From: Ruminococcus sp.
GTDB lineage: Bacteria > Bacillota > Clostridia > Oscillospirales > Ruminococcaceae
DNA: 33,580 bases
Reading direction: 5' to 3'
NCBI GenBank assembly: GCA_017523285.1
Contig: JAFWWU010000017.1
Location: 1 to 33,580, forward strand
The stretch's first letter is position 1; every line of letters begins with the position of its first letter. Both the position numbers and the translations under genes were made by a program. Positions 20,724-33,580 of the stretch are shown here, piece by piece. The notes under the pieces are model-generated. The model worked only from the letters and a program-made list of their open reading frames with translations, had not been told where the DNA came from and searched no databases.

Positions 20724-20764
20724 AAGCCTGAGAAGAATTGAGTTCTTCTCAGGCTTTGTTTTTT
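20724..20764. terminator. Bidirectional terminator after glyS
   Basis: A 14 bp stem (20724-20737 with 20743-20756), loop TTGAG, followed by TGTTTTTTTG. On the minus strand ATTTTGTTT follows, so it can also end the convergent regulator gene. Confidence 0.92.
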
Positions 20765-20768
20765 GCTG

Positions 20769-21356
20769 TTATATTTTTTGCTTCATAAGTCCATGATGAT
20801 TACAGTATAAATACAGATAGCCTTTGCCTCTCAGATTAAAGCGACATTCTGCATTTCCCTCAGGATAAAGCTTTATAAGCTGTATTTTATCTGATGTAAC
20901 ATGAGCCAGAAATGAGATATAATGCTTTTTGGTCATCTCGTGATTTACAGTCAGAAAATGCTCATCTTCAACATTTTCGATAATAATTCTATGTGCATCA
21001 TCAGTTTCTTCTGTTTCTGAGGGAAGTAGATTTATTCCGCAGCAGCTTATGATACTTTCGCCGACAGCAGTAATAATATTTCCGCATATAGGGCAGATGT
21101 AGAATTTCACACGAAGCATATTTGCGGAAATATTCTTGTTATCAACCGCATTCCCTGACATTAATTCTATTACGGAAACGGAAAGAGCACTTGCAAGAGG
21201 CTCTAACAGCGAAATATCAGGAAATCCCTTTGCGGTTTCCCATTTTGATATGGTTTTAGGGCTTACATCGATTAAGGCGGCAAGTTCATTCTGAGTCATA
21301 TGTTTCTGCTCACGAAGCTGTTTTATTGTACTGCCTGTAACGTAATTATCTATCAT
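20769..21356 (-). CDS. XRE regulator fused to a desulfoferrodoxin-like domain
   Basis: A 195-residue DNA-binding protein with an iron-type sensor domain. Residues 9-65 form an HTH_3/XRE domain (IKQLREQKHMTQNELAALID, then SPKTISKWE). From about 85 the protein reads as a desulfoferrodoxin (2Fe superoxide reductase): C88, C91, C105 and C106 match the desulforedoxin Fe(Cys)4 site, and H122, H139, H145, C185 and H188 match the SOR Fe(His)4Cys site, with spacings of H139-H145 and C185-H188 as in the enzyme (NHEMTKKHYI; YCNHHGL). The usual Glu-Lys pair before the first His is D120-A121 here, so it is more likely a sensor of superoxide or redox state than an efficient reductase. AAAGGAG-type site precedes the ATG. 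It has its own promoter, divergent from the DUF4317 gene. Confidence 0.88.
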   Translation of the reverse strand: MIDNYVTGSTIKQLREQKHMTQNELAALIDVSPKTISKWETAKGFPDISLLEPLASALSVSVIELMSGNAVDNKNISANMLRVKFYICPICGNIITAVGESIISCCGINLLPSETEETDDAHRIIIENVEDEHFLTVNHEMTKKHYISFLAHVTSDKIQLIKLYPEGNAECRFNLRGKGYLYLYCNHHGLMKQKI

Positions 21357-21386: not shown

Positions 21387-21415
21387 AGTATATCATCATA
21401 AATGGGAATATACAA
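21387..21415 (-). promoter_or_regulatory. Promoter of the XRE-desulfoferrodoxin gene
   Basis: On the minus strand TTGTAT (21415-21410) and TATACT (21392-21387), 17 bases apart, with an extended -10 TG. Confidence 0.6.
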
Positions 21416-21416
21416 C

Positions 21417-21429
21417 CTACGTTTCGTAG
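21417..21429. promoter_or_regulatory. Candidate operator dyad
   Basis: CTACG-TTT-CGTAG, a perfect 5 bp dyad with a 3-base centre, lies 1 base from the -35 box of the regulator gene, in the divergent region. Size and placement suit an XRE dimer. Confidence 0.4.
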
Positions 21430-21465: not shown

Positions 21466-21494
21466 TTGCAAAAATGGAAAAAATATTATATAAT
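21466..21494 (+). promoter_or_regulatory. Promoter of the DUF4317-CLC-GNAT cluster
   Basis: TTGCAA (21466-21471) and a perfect TATAAT (21489-21494), 17 bases apart. It fixes the downstream start codon to the ATG at 21540. Confidence 0.75.
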
Positions 21495-31654: not shown

Positions 31655-33070
31655 TTATTTCTGAATATCGTTTTCGTCGAATGAATCGCCGCATTCAGGG
31701 CAGAATTTCGGTGGGTTCTTTGGATCTTCAGGAGTCCAGCCGCATTTATCGCACTTGTAGATTGGTGCGCCTGCCGGACGTGGTTTTGCACATTCTGTGC
31801 AGAATTTACCTGTGTTTACAGCTCCGCAAGAACATGTCCAGCCGTCAGCGCTTGGCTTTGGCTTAGCACATTCTGTGCAGAACTTGCCTGTGTTTGTTGC
31901 TCCGCATGAGCAAGTCCACTGACCTGCAGGTGCCGGCTTTGGTTTAGCGCATTCTGTGCAGAATTTGCCTGTGTTTGATGTTCCGCATGAACAAGTCCAG
32001 GCGTTGAGGTTAGCGGCAGCCTGCTGCTGTGCCATAGCCTGAGCTTGCTGCTGAGCCTGTTGCTGAGCATTCATATTGAATAATGACTGTGCGTCAATTC
32101 CGCCTGCCTGCTGAGCCATATTCATGCCCATAAAGCCCATCATAGCGCCATTCTTGTTATTAGCGGCATCCTTCATAGCCTGAGCCTGAGCCTCTGTGAG
32201 AGTAGCAGCAGCCATACCTGCGTTACGCATAACAGCAGTTTTCTGAAGCTGCTTTATCATATCCTCGTCTTCTTTTGGGATTGTAGCGCTGTTTACTGTT
32301 ATCTCGATAAGCTCGATACCCTTTTTCTGAAGCCACTTGTCAGCAAGAGCTTTTCTGAGAGCATCTGTGAGTTCCATAGTGCATCCTGGAAGCTGATTGT
32401 AACGTATGCCCTTTTGTGAAATATCAAAGAATGCAGGTTGAAGAGCTGTAAGAAGCTCAGTTTTAAGCTGTGCAGCGATATCATCTCTTCTTAATTCGTT
32501 TGCTACGTTTCCTGAGTAAGTGGAGAAGAAGAGAAGTGGGTCGGCAATTCTGTATGAATATGCGCCGTTGCAGCGAACAGTAATATCAACGTCAAGACCT
32601 ATATTATTATCAACAAGTCTGAATGGAACTGGATTCTGTGTGCCATAAGGGTTGTTGAGAATTTCCTTTGTGTTTATGTAGTAGATACGCTGATCCTTAG
32701 CAGCAACACCGCCAAATGTAAAACGTCTGCCGATGTTCTTGAAAGTATCAATGATACCCTTTCCAAGACTATCGCAGAAGATTGATGGTTCAGAAGATGT
32801 GTCGTATGTATATTCACCAGGGTCAGCACAGATAGCTGTAACGAGTCCCTGATCAAGTACGATAGCACACTGACCGATAGCAACAGAGAAAACAGAACCG
32901 TTTGTGATTACATTTTCATCGCCCTTTGTGTTTGAAGAACGACCTGTAACCTTTTTCTTTCCTTTTGCTACGAGAACATCAGTTGAAAGTGCTTCGCACA
33001 TAAAATATTCTTTCCACTGGTCAGCCATTACGCCGCCGGCAGAACCTAATAATGCTTTGATAACGCCCAT
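31655..33070 (-). CDS. SPFH-domain protein with tandem zinc ribbons
   Basis: A 471-residue protein of the YdjI/SPFH (band 7) type, called virion core protein in some databases. The N-terminal 300 residues form the SPFH domain (GVIKALLGSAGGVMADQWKE, VFSVAIGQCAIVLDQG). A short Ala/Gln-rich linker (AQQQAQQQAQAMAQQ) follows, then three near-identical zinc ribbons (WTCSCG...NTGKFCTECAKP) and a fourth, different one (CDKCG...CPECG). B. subtilis YdjI is tied to membrane stress with PspA; a similar envelope role here is inference. The ATG at 33070 has AAGGAGG 7 bases upstream; an earlier in-frame ATG at 33109 lies in a leader hairpin. Confidence 0.9.
   Translation of the reverse strand: MGVIKALLGSAGGVMADQWKEYFMCEALSTDVLVAKGKKKVTGRSSNTKGDENVITNGSVFSVAIGQCAIVLDQGLVTAICADPGEYTYDTSSEPSIFCDSLGKGIIDTFKNIGRRFTFGGVAAKDQRIYYINTKEILNNPYGTQNPVPFRLVDNNIGLDVDITVRCNGAYSYRIADPLLFFSTYSGNVANELRRDDIAAQLKTELLTALQPAFFDISQKGIRYNQLPGCTMELTDALRKALADKWLQKKGIELIEITVNSATIPKEDEDMIKQLQKTAVMRNAGMAAATLTEAQAQAMKDAANNKNGAMMGFMGMNMAQQAGGIDAQSLFNMNAQQQAQQQAQAMAQQQAAANLNAWTCSCGTSNTGKFCTECAKPKPAPAGQWTCSCGATNTGKFCTECAKPKPSADGWTCSCGAVNTGKFCTECAKPRPAGAPIYKCDKCGWTPEDPKNPPKFCPECGDSFDENDIQK
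31775..31999 (-). repeat. Tandem zinc-ribbon coding repeat
   Basis: Three direct repeats of 81, 78 and 66 bases encode ribbons of the form WTCSCG-xx-NTGKFCTECAKP. Their DNA is similar enough (for example CATTCTGTGC at 31791, 31869 and 31950) to suggest recent internal duplication. Slippage could change ribbon number. Confidence 0.85.
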
Positions 33071-33095
33071 TGATAGACCTCCTTGTTTTATCTCA

Positions 33096-33111
33096 GAGTG
33101 TTTATACACTC
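33096..33111 (-). promoter_or_regulatory. Hairpin in the SPFH leader
   Basis: GAGTGT (33096-33101) and ACACTC (33106-33111), a 6 bp stem with a 4-base loop, about 15 bases before the ribosome binding site. Confidence 0.45.
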
Positions 33112-33282: not shown

Positions 33283-33356
33283 TGGAGGCGCCACCCAGAT
33301 TTGAACTGGGGATCAGGGTGTTGCAGACCCACGCCTTACCGCTTGGCTATAGCGCC
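33283..33356 (-). tRNA. tRNA-Cys (GCA)
   Basis: A 74-base tRNA with acceptor GGCGCTA/TGGCGCC, anticodon loop CTGCAAC (anticodon GCA), T-loop TTCAAAT between CCCAG/CTGGG, discriminator T and encoded CCA. It is the last of the minus-strand cluster. There is a U-U mismatch at the base of the anticodon stem. Confidence 0.95.
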
Positions 33357-33361
33357 TCAAT

Positions 33362-33437
33362 TGGAGCGGATTACGAGGCTCGAACTCGCTACCTCCACCT
33401 TGGCAAGGTGGCGCTCTACCAGATGAGCTAAATCCGC
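33362..33437 (-). tRNA. tRNA-Gly (GCC)
   Basis: A 76-base tRNA with acceptor GCGGATT/AATCCGC, anticodon loop TTGCCAA (GCC), T-loop TTCGAGC, discriminator T and encoded CCA. It lies 5 bases from tRNA-Cys. Confidence 0.97.
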
Positions 33438-33439
33438 AT

Positions 33440-33516
33440 TGGCGACCCGGATGAGGCTCGAACTCACGACCTCCAGCGTGACAGGCTGGCGTTCTAACCA
33501 ACTGAACTACCGGGCC
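33440..33516 (-). tRNA. tRNA-Asp (GTC)
   Basis: A 77-base tRNA with acceptor GGCCCGG/CCGGGTC (one G-U), anticodon loop CTGTCAC (GTC), T-loop TTCGAGC, discriminator G and encoded CCA. It lies 2 bases from tRNA-Gly. Confidence 0.97.
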
Positions 33517-33520
33517 ACGA

Positions 33521-33580
33521 TGGTGGGAACTACAGGGCTCGAACCTGTGACCCTCTGCTTGTAAGGCAGATGCTCTCCCA
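33521..33580 (-). tRNA. tRNA-Val (TAC), partial
   Basis: The 3' part of a tRNA cut by the window edge: anticodon loop CTTACAA (TAC) between TCTGC/GCAGA, T-stem ACAGG/CCTGT, acceptor 3' strand AGTTCCC, discriminator A and CCA. Confidence 0.92.

Follow-up and report, generated by a model that had tools for sequence, protein, structure and literature searches.

An XRE-family regulator with a desulfoferrodoxin-type body and a candidate operator at its own promoter

The window analyzed here, a 33,580-nucleotide stretch of a Ruminococcus sp. contig (JAFWWU010000017.1), encodes a protein in which an N-terminal HTH_3 DNA-binding domain is joined to a desulfoferrodoxin-type body. With a probability of about 60%, we consider it an autoregulated one-component regulator, in which the superoxide reductase (SOR) fold serves as input and dimerization domain and centre I, rather than the catalytic site, is the essential part; its signal, its metal and the sign of regulation are what we infer from the data below. 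The combination of HTH and SOR is not new, as it was catalogued in 2011, when SORGOdb set up the class HTH-Dx-SOR with 19 proteins (PMC3116461). New here are a palindrome at the regulator's own promoter, its recurrence in front of a few further genes, and a pattern in which centre I is kept and centre II is lost.

Domain architecture and distribution

The regulator gene starts with an ATG at 21356 on the minus strand, and its stop codon ends at 20769 (Table 1). Its HTH_3 domain scores 51.2 bits, over the curated Pfam cut-off of 23 bits. For the C-terminal body, the Pfam profile Desulfoferrodox matches residues 137-193 with an E-value of 2.4e-4, just below the cut-off (22.0 against 22.2 bits) but above it in the whole-genome search (23 bits), in addition to a weak match of Desulfoferrod_N to residues 85-107 (E 0.059). 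The desulfoferrodoxin family TIGR00320 covers residues 83-193 with an E-value of 5.7e-11, at a score (42.7 bits) far below the equivalog cut-off of 146.9 bits. Comparison with solved desulfoferrodoxins (PDB 2ji2, 1vzg and 1dfx) gave E-values of 2.3e-8 with the single sequence and 2.3e-13 with a family profile, and in the printed alignments the Cys and His ligands of both centres pair with those of the regulator. The first-pass annotation, which had read an HTH_3 domain fused to a desulfoferrodoxin-type part over residues 85-195 and had placed nine metal ligands there, is thus borne out, each ligand lying exactly where it had been placed. SORs have a Glu-Lys pair beside the first His ligand. 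The annotation had reported this pair as missing, and indeed residues 120-121 are Asp-Ala; the window protein differs from the desulfoferrodoxin enzymes, which have the Glu-Lys pair but no HTH.

Table 1. Features of the regulator locus and other features of the window
Feature	Position	Strand	Basis
Regulator gene, 195 aa: HTH_3 head and desulfoferrodoxin-type (Dx-SOR) body	20769..21356	-	ORF and profile matches
HTH_3 DNA-binding domain, residues 11-65	21162..21326	-	Pfam, E 1.2e-13
Centre I (desulforedoxin-like): C88, C91, C105, C106	21039..21095	-	family alignment
Centre II (SOR-like): H122, H139, H145, C185, H188	20793..20993	-	complete in the window protein
-10 TATACT of the regulator promoter, 17-bp spacer	21387..21392	-	register common to the family
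-35 TTGTAT of the regulator promoter	21410..21415	-	register common to the family
Proposed operator CTACGAAACGTAGGTTG, with palindrome CTACGnnnCGTAG at 21417-21429	21413..21429	-	family upstream comparison
Two-way terminator-like hairpin 3' of the regulator gene, shared with the convergent gene	20724..20756	both	terminator scan
Promoter-like site of the DUF4317 gene	21466..21494		
T-box leader, 139.5 bits	9675..9888	-	
484-aa ORF, C-terminus with several CxCG...FCxxC zinc-ribbon-like repeats	31655..33109	-	repeats seen by eye
Four clustered tRNA genes, the last truncated at the end of the window	33286..33580	-	

Similar to the HTH-Dx-SOR class, the regulator has an N-terminal HTH followed by desulforedoxin-like and SOR domains; all five centre II ligands and the CxxC...CC centre are present, with the second and third Cys separated by 13 residues, compared to X15 in the wording of SORGOdb (PMC3116461). 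That class was collected by an active centre II, whereas the wider family described here includes members that have lost it, and the accessible portions of the SORGOdb paper give no function, operator or targets for the class (PMC3116461). The annotation's remark that such fusions lack a functional description holds in so far as no functional study of HTH-Dx-SOR proteins was found in the literature searched, mostly without subscription papers and supplements, but the architecture itself had already been catalogued (PMC3116461). TrtA of Treponema denticola, an XRE regulator tied to oxygen, was considered as a characterized homologue and rejected, as it has 104 residues and the accessible text reports no SOR part (PMC12724145).

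A contig search returned 54 loci, comprising 43 full-length relatives at 53-90% identity and 11 that share the HTH only. By title, the 43 relatives come mostly from Oscillospiraceae/Ruminococcus and Lachnospiraceae, plus one Treponema metagenome bin, whose 60%-identical copy (L041) reflects either gene transfer or a misbinned contig. The regulator was matched in 13 of 30 own and related genomes, the own genome (97.5% complete, 174 contigs) included, and in 82 of the 393 genomes of the class sample, representing 55 of 220 genera. Both the HTH and the C-terminal part are covered in 73 of these 82 genomes; the nine other matches cover the C-terminal part only, and the three examined (L258-L260) have no HTH. 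The family set has 125 rows, 122 of them with HTH. Besides the window protein and its 43 relatives it contains 81 others, of which 12 come from related genomes and 69 (29 loci and 40 fetched) from the class-sample matches. Thirteen class-sample rows from 12 genomes stand outside it (G153 twice, G164, G173, G194, G239, G317, G368, G386, G418, G433, G434 and G440). Within the set L084 repeats L005 and L021 is identical to L022; as the rows include close relatives, the counts are of non-independent events, and the homologues are mostly from metagenome bins.

Clustering of the ORFs flanking the 43 relatives found no gene neighbourhood conserved beyond close relatives. The divergent DUF4317-CLC-GNAT cluster had been correctly identified by the first-pass annotation, but its role as a target is unsupported and was rejected, because it adjoins the regulator gene in only one of the 43 relatives (the 90%-identical L003; several relatives are on short contigs) and because a promoter-like site of DUF4317's own lies some 37 bp past the operator. 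The regulator gene itself looks monocistronic, since it is followed by a two-way terminator-like hairpin. A more distant HTH-Dx-SOR relative (L311, 32% identity) is encoded on a 55-kb plasmid of Monoglobus pectinilyticus (NZ_OY725727.1), between genes for a sugar O-acetyltransferase and a ZIP family metal transporter.

Metal centres across the family

In the alignment of 44 sequences, C88, C91, C105, H139, H145 and C185 are present in all, H122 in 43, and C106 and H188 in 38 each, a conservation that excludes a chance origin of the nine ligands; the six sequences with His106 are the same six that have Asp188. The larger family set retains C88, C91 and C105 in all 125 rows; position 106 is more variable, with 110 Cys, 14 His and one Asn. 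By contrast, all five centre II ligands are found in 76 of the 125 rows and centre II is incomplete in 49. H188 alone is changed in 19 rows, H122 alone is lost in 16, and both are lacking in six, one of which (L094) ends before position 188. In eight further rows H122, H145, C185 and H188 are all missing, the C-terminal CxxH having become SxxX, and the CxxC...CC motif is intact. H139 is kept in all 122 HTH-bearing rows and may therefore have another role. A Lys occupies the position of SOR Lys48 in 11 of the 125 rows.

On a quick tree, built with the ligand columns left out, the distinction between complete and incomplete centre II requires at least 12 changes, seven of them forced by well-supported branches; H145 and C185 were lost at least four times, and centre I changed at least twice. 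Centre I is near-invariant and centre II repeatedly lost, and therefore centre I appears to be the part that cannot be lost. This pattern suggests that selection protects centre I, not the catalytic centre II, in all members, although the invariance of centre I would equally fit a structural zinc site.

One Lachnospiraceae-like branch carries Cys106 to His together with His188 to Asp, thus one ligand of each metal centre, in 13 rows (L038-L040, L042, L043, L045, L195, L197, L199, L202, L203, L212 and L213). A fourteenth row, L206, has Asn and Asp instead. In this branch both centres change at roughly the same point of the tree.

A candidate operator and its further sites

Across the family, a palindrome TCTACGnnnCGTAG(G/A)TTG adjoins the -35 of the regulator's own promoter. 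In the family upstream consensus TCTACGnnnCGTAGGTTG, the TTG starts the -35 and is followed by a 17-bp spacer and TATAAT. Among the 121 members with at least 60 bp of upstream DNA, the element is found in 104 at 11 or more of the 14 specified bases, compared to a mean of 1.02 and a maximum of 4 in 50 dinucleotide-shuffled sets. In 97 of these 104 upstreams a -10 that matches four or more of six bases lies in register, a score reached by 22% of random positions, and the spacer is 17 bp in 86. The -35 resembles TTGACA at a mean of 3.5 of six bases (97 sites); a simple promoter scan of the window passed over the TTGTAT/TATACT pair, TTGTAT having too few consensus bases. The window operator is the only exact match in the whole genome, and the four remaining palindromes, each with one mismatch, fall within ORFs. 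We propose this conserved palindrome as the candidate operator of the regulator; no occurrence of its sequence, in six written forms, was found in the literature searched.

Ten of the 17 members without an adjoining element have one farther upstream, either before an operon containing the regulator (L234, L236, L237, L240, L245, L248 and L254) or some 0.2-0.8 kb ahead of the regulator, without a visible gene in between (L238, L239 and L247). In L232 a GIY-YIG-like gene, whose element scores a poor 10 of 14, precedes the regulator, and six members have no such account (L044, L199, L233, L253, L255 and L257). An initial reading of HTH-operator coevolution, in which a group with recognition helix QNK/KNK would be without the operator, was withdrawn, since in the five genomes of that group the element stands in front of an operon, 0.4-4 kb upstream.

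The 11 HTH-only relatives (L046-L056) are XRE/HTH_3 regulators with an HTH 51-62% identical to that of the window protein. They share its HTH type and the same operator-promoter element, but differ in a C-terminus that looks membrane-bound or otherwise unrelated and has no SOR fold. The element lies upstream of all ten that have enough upstream DNA, scoring 10-13 of 14, whereas of 2000 random 250-bp windows drawn from these loci, with self-sites left in, 86 reach 10. As the element is present despite unrelated C-termini, HTH and operator seem to travel as a unit, and by this comparison the C-terminus of the HTH clade seems to be a swappable input module. The same finding supports self-binding but warns that sites may be shared, so that a given site need not be bound by a regulator of the window type. 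XREs with this HTH type or element (L046-L051, L053-L056, L126, L304, L306 and L308) have membrane, GNAT or ROK-like C-termini, and may represent a wider self-regulating promoter-HTH module.

In the window genome, the operator-plus-promoter pattern with up to two mismatches occurs at two places, the regulator promoter and G000:C121:7601, and at a third place, in C114, only with three mismatches. The site at G000:C121:7601 lies 88 nt before a gene for a 227-residue flavodoxin-fold protein (Pfam Flavodoxin_2 and FMN_red), whose CxxCxxC...C stretch we take to be reminiscent of iron-sulfur flavoproteins, with no profile support. This gene is present in three of 33 genomes searched and preceded by the element in all three, which is weak target evidence because the three copies are 92-93% identical. 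The canonical SOR gene of the window genome showed no such element in the operator scans. When a shorter pattern was searched with one mismatch, 20 stretches were found away from the own promoter, and one more match is the opposite strand of a self-site. Seventeen of the 20 have no TATAAT-like -10 in register, 16 of them lying inside an ORF, and were rejected as operators; the other three precede two flavoprotein genes and one XRE gene. In five genus genomes (G001, G004, G008, G009 and G012) a recurring promoter-like string resembles CTGCAnATTGTGGGTTG plus TATAAT at three mismatches, possibly the site of another regulator.

A scan of the 393 class genomes with up to two mismatches gave 44 sites in 42 genomes, compared to 12 matches of a reversed control pattern. 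By position, 26 of the 44 can be assigned to the regulator or to the operon it lies in. Among the 18 others, 11 were examined: two precede GIY-YIG-like genes, two genes for CAT-family acetyltransferases (Pfam CAT), one the flavoprotein gene, three XRE genes with other C-termini and one a 69-residue ORF, in addition to two intra-ORF sites. The acetyltransferase genes, found once in each of two families, are only suggestive because of the 12 control matches.

The best-supported extra target predicted by these comparisons is the GIY-YIG-like gene, named after the annotation of 31-34% identical proteins in plasmid records; its product has no Pfam or NCBIfam match above cut-off. The regulator is present in all 11 class genomes with a close copy (E ≤ 1e-20), but in two of the 22 other matching genomes. 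One of these 22, G058, has a 38-residue piece at 76% identity but no regulator match, which speaks against a strict linkage. When Acetoanaerobium noterae is added to the class sample, the element precedes the close copy in 11 of 12 regulator-bearing genomes, 61-62 nt ahead of the gene start (58 in one row through start choice), and scores only 10 of 14 in the twelfth, G353. The close copy lies near the regulator in nine of the 12 and elsewhere in three (G216, G243 and G268). By contrast, none of 18 distant copies, two of them in regulator-bearing genomes, is preceded by the element (best 9 of 14), a count that leaves out the G058 piece, which has no start, and five rows. Sequence closeness and element thus co-vary, and descent alone may explain part of the association. 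In three genomes (L290-L292; G089, G215 and G258) element-driven operons comprise the GIY-YIG-like gene, DUF6530, an AAA-type ATPase/VWA-like stretch and then the regulator, with an IS-like transposase pair inside the G215 operon.

Proposed mode of action and alternative explanations

Desulfoferrodoxins are dimers. We propose that a regulator dimer, held by the desulforedoxin-like centre I region, would bind TCTACGnnnCGTAG and control its own transcription together with a very small regulon, namely the flavodoxin-fold/FMN-reductase-like gene in the window genome and the GIY-YIG-like gene in other genomes. Iron loading of the metal site, or its oxidation by superoxide, peroxide or O2, would alter DNA binding, with repression in the reduced, metal-loaded state and release on oxidative stress. 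A complete centre II, as in the window protein, may add superoxide reactivity, and centre I alone would serve where it is lost. If transcription starts 7 nt after the -10, the palindrome would be centred near -43 and could block the -35. Lambda-cI-like activators also act near this position, and the fixed register in unrelated promoters together with the weak -35 keeps activation possible; repression seems somewhat the likelier of the two. A possible working parallel is PerR, the Fur-type peroxide repressor described with the rbr-sor operon in C. difficile, which is likewise a metal-based repressor governing its own gene, but which, in the accessible portions of its literature, has the Fur fold, an unrelated sensor, and another operator and targets. 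The fold and the ligand conservation point to sensing through the metal centres, and superoxide, oxygen or iron are plausible signals. Against the overall proposal stand the putative nature of any link between the targets and oxidative stress, the canonical SOR gene without the element in the scans, and the background of the class-wide scan, 12 control matches against 44.

The first-pass annotation had favoured a regulator over an enzyme, a view strengthened by the element at the own promoter and at other genes, by the separate canonical SOR and by the losses of catalytic ligands. It is improbable that the protein is an SOR that also represses its own gene, scavenging superoxide and adjusting its own level. 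For such a dual role speak the full set of nine ligands in the window protein, the Lys at the SOR Lys48 position in eight of the 122 HTH-bearing rows, and the own promoter as the commonest site found; but Asp-Ala replaces Glu-Lys in the window protein, 49 of 125 rows lack a complete centre II, and the window genome already has a canonical desulfoferrodoxin with E-K-H (G000:C87). In a chosen sample of 50 regulator-bearing genomes, a canonical SOR distinct from the regulator was found in 34 (Desulfoferrodox E ≤ 4e-16). The regulator has a complete centre II in 16 of the 34 genomes with such an SOR and in six of the 16 without (Fisher p 0.56). The idea of an enzyme standing in for a missing SOR was accordingly rejected.

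Rather more weight, though still unlikely, is given to an autoregulated XRE whose SOR-like body is only a dimer scaffold, for example with zinc in centre I, the signal coming otherwise or not at all. A structural site could tolerate the His (14 of 125 rows) and Asn (1 of 125) at position 106 of an otherwise near-invariant centre I, centre II is dispensable in the family, and the candidate targets outside the window genome, among them two CAT-family acetyltransferase genes and the GIY-YIG-like gene, are not classical oxidative-stress genes. A mere scaffold would not need the five centre II ligands that 76 of 125 rows keep, however, and the flavoprotein target suits a redox theme. That another XRE of the same HTH type binds the palindrome, the regulator's target lying elsewhere, is as improbable as the dual-role enzyme: XREs with other C-termini do have the same element, but it tracks the HTH clade as a self-site in both C-terminal kinds, only the regulator gene carries it among the nine examined of the 13 HTH_3 genes in the window genome, and all 11 genomes with a close GIY-YIG-like copy also have the regulator.

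A broader picture, which we hold only tentatively, is that a widespread class of transcription factors in anaerobes has taken the SOR fold as its input domain, with the Cys4 centre I as the switch and the once-catalytic centre II discarded lineage by lineage. The module would be self-wired, its operator fused to the -35 and its sensor swapped in sister regulators, and its targets would be a nuclease-like protein, a flavoprotein and acetyltransferases rather than classical oxidative-stress genes. HTH-fused SORs have been listed since 2011 with no function found; a candidate operator, a fixed promoter register and candidate targets now make their function testable. If centre I senses oxidation or iron, the family would represent a one-component regulator built on the SOR fold and present in nearly a fifth of the sampled class genomes.
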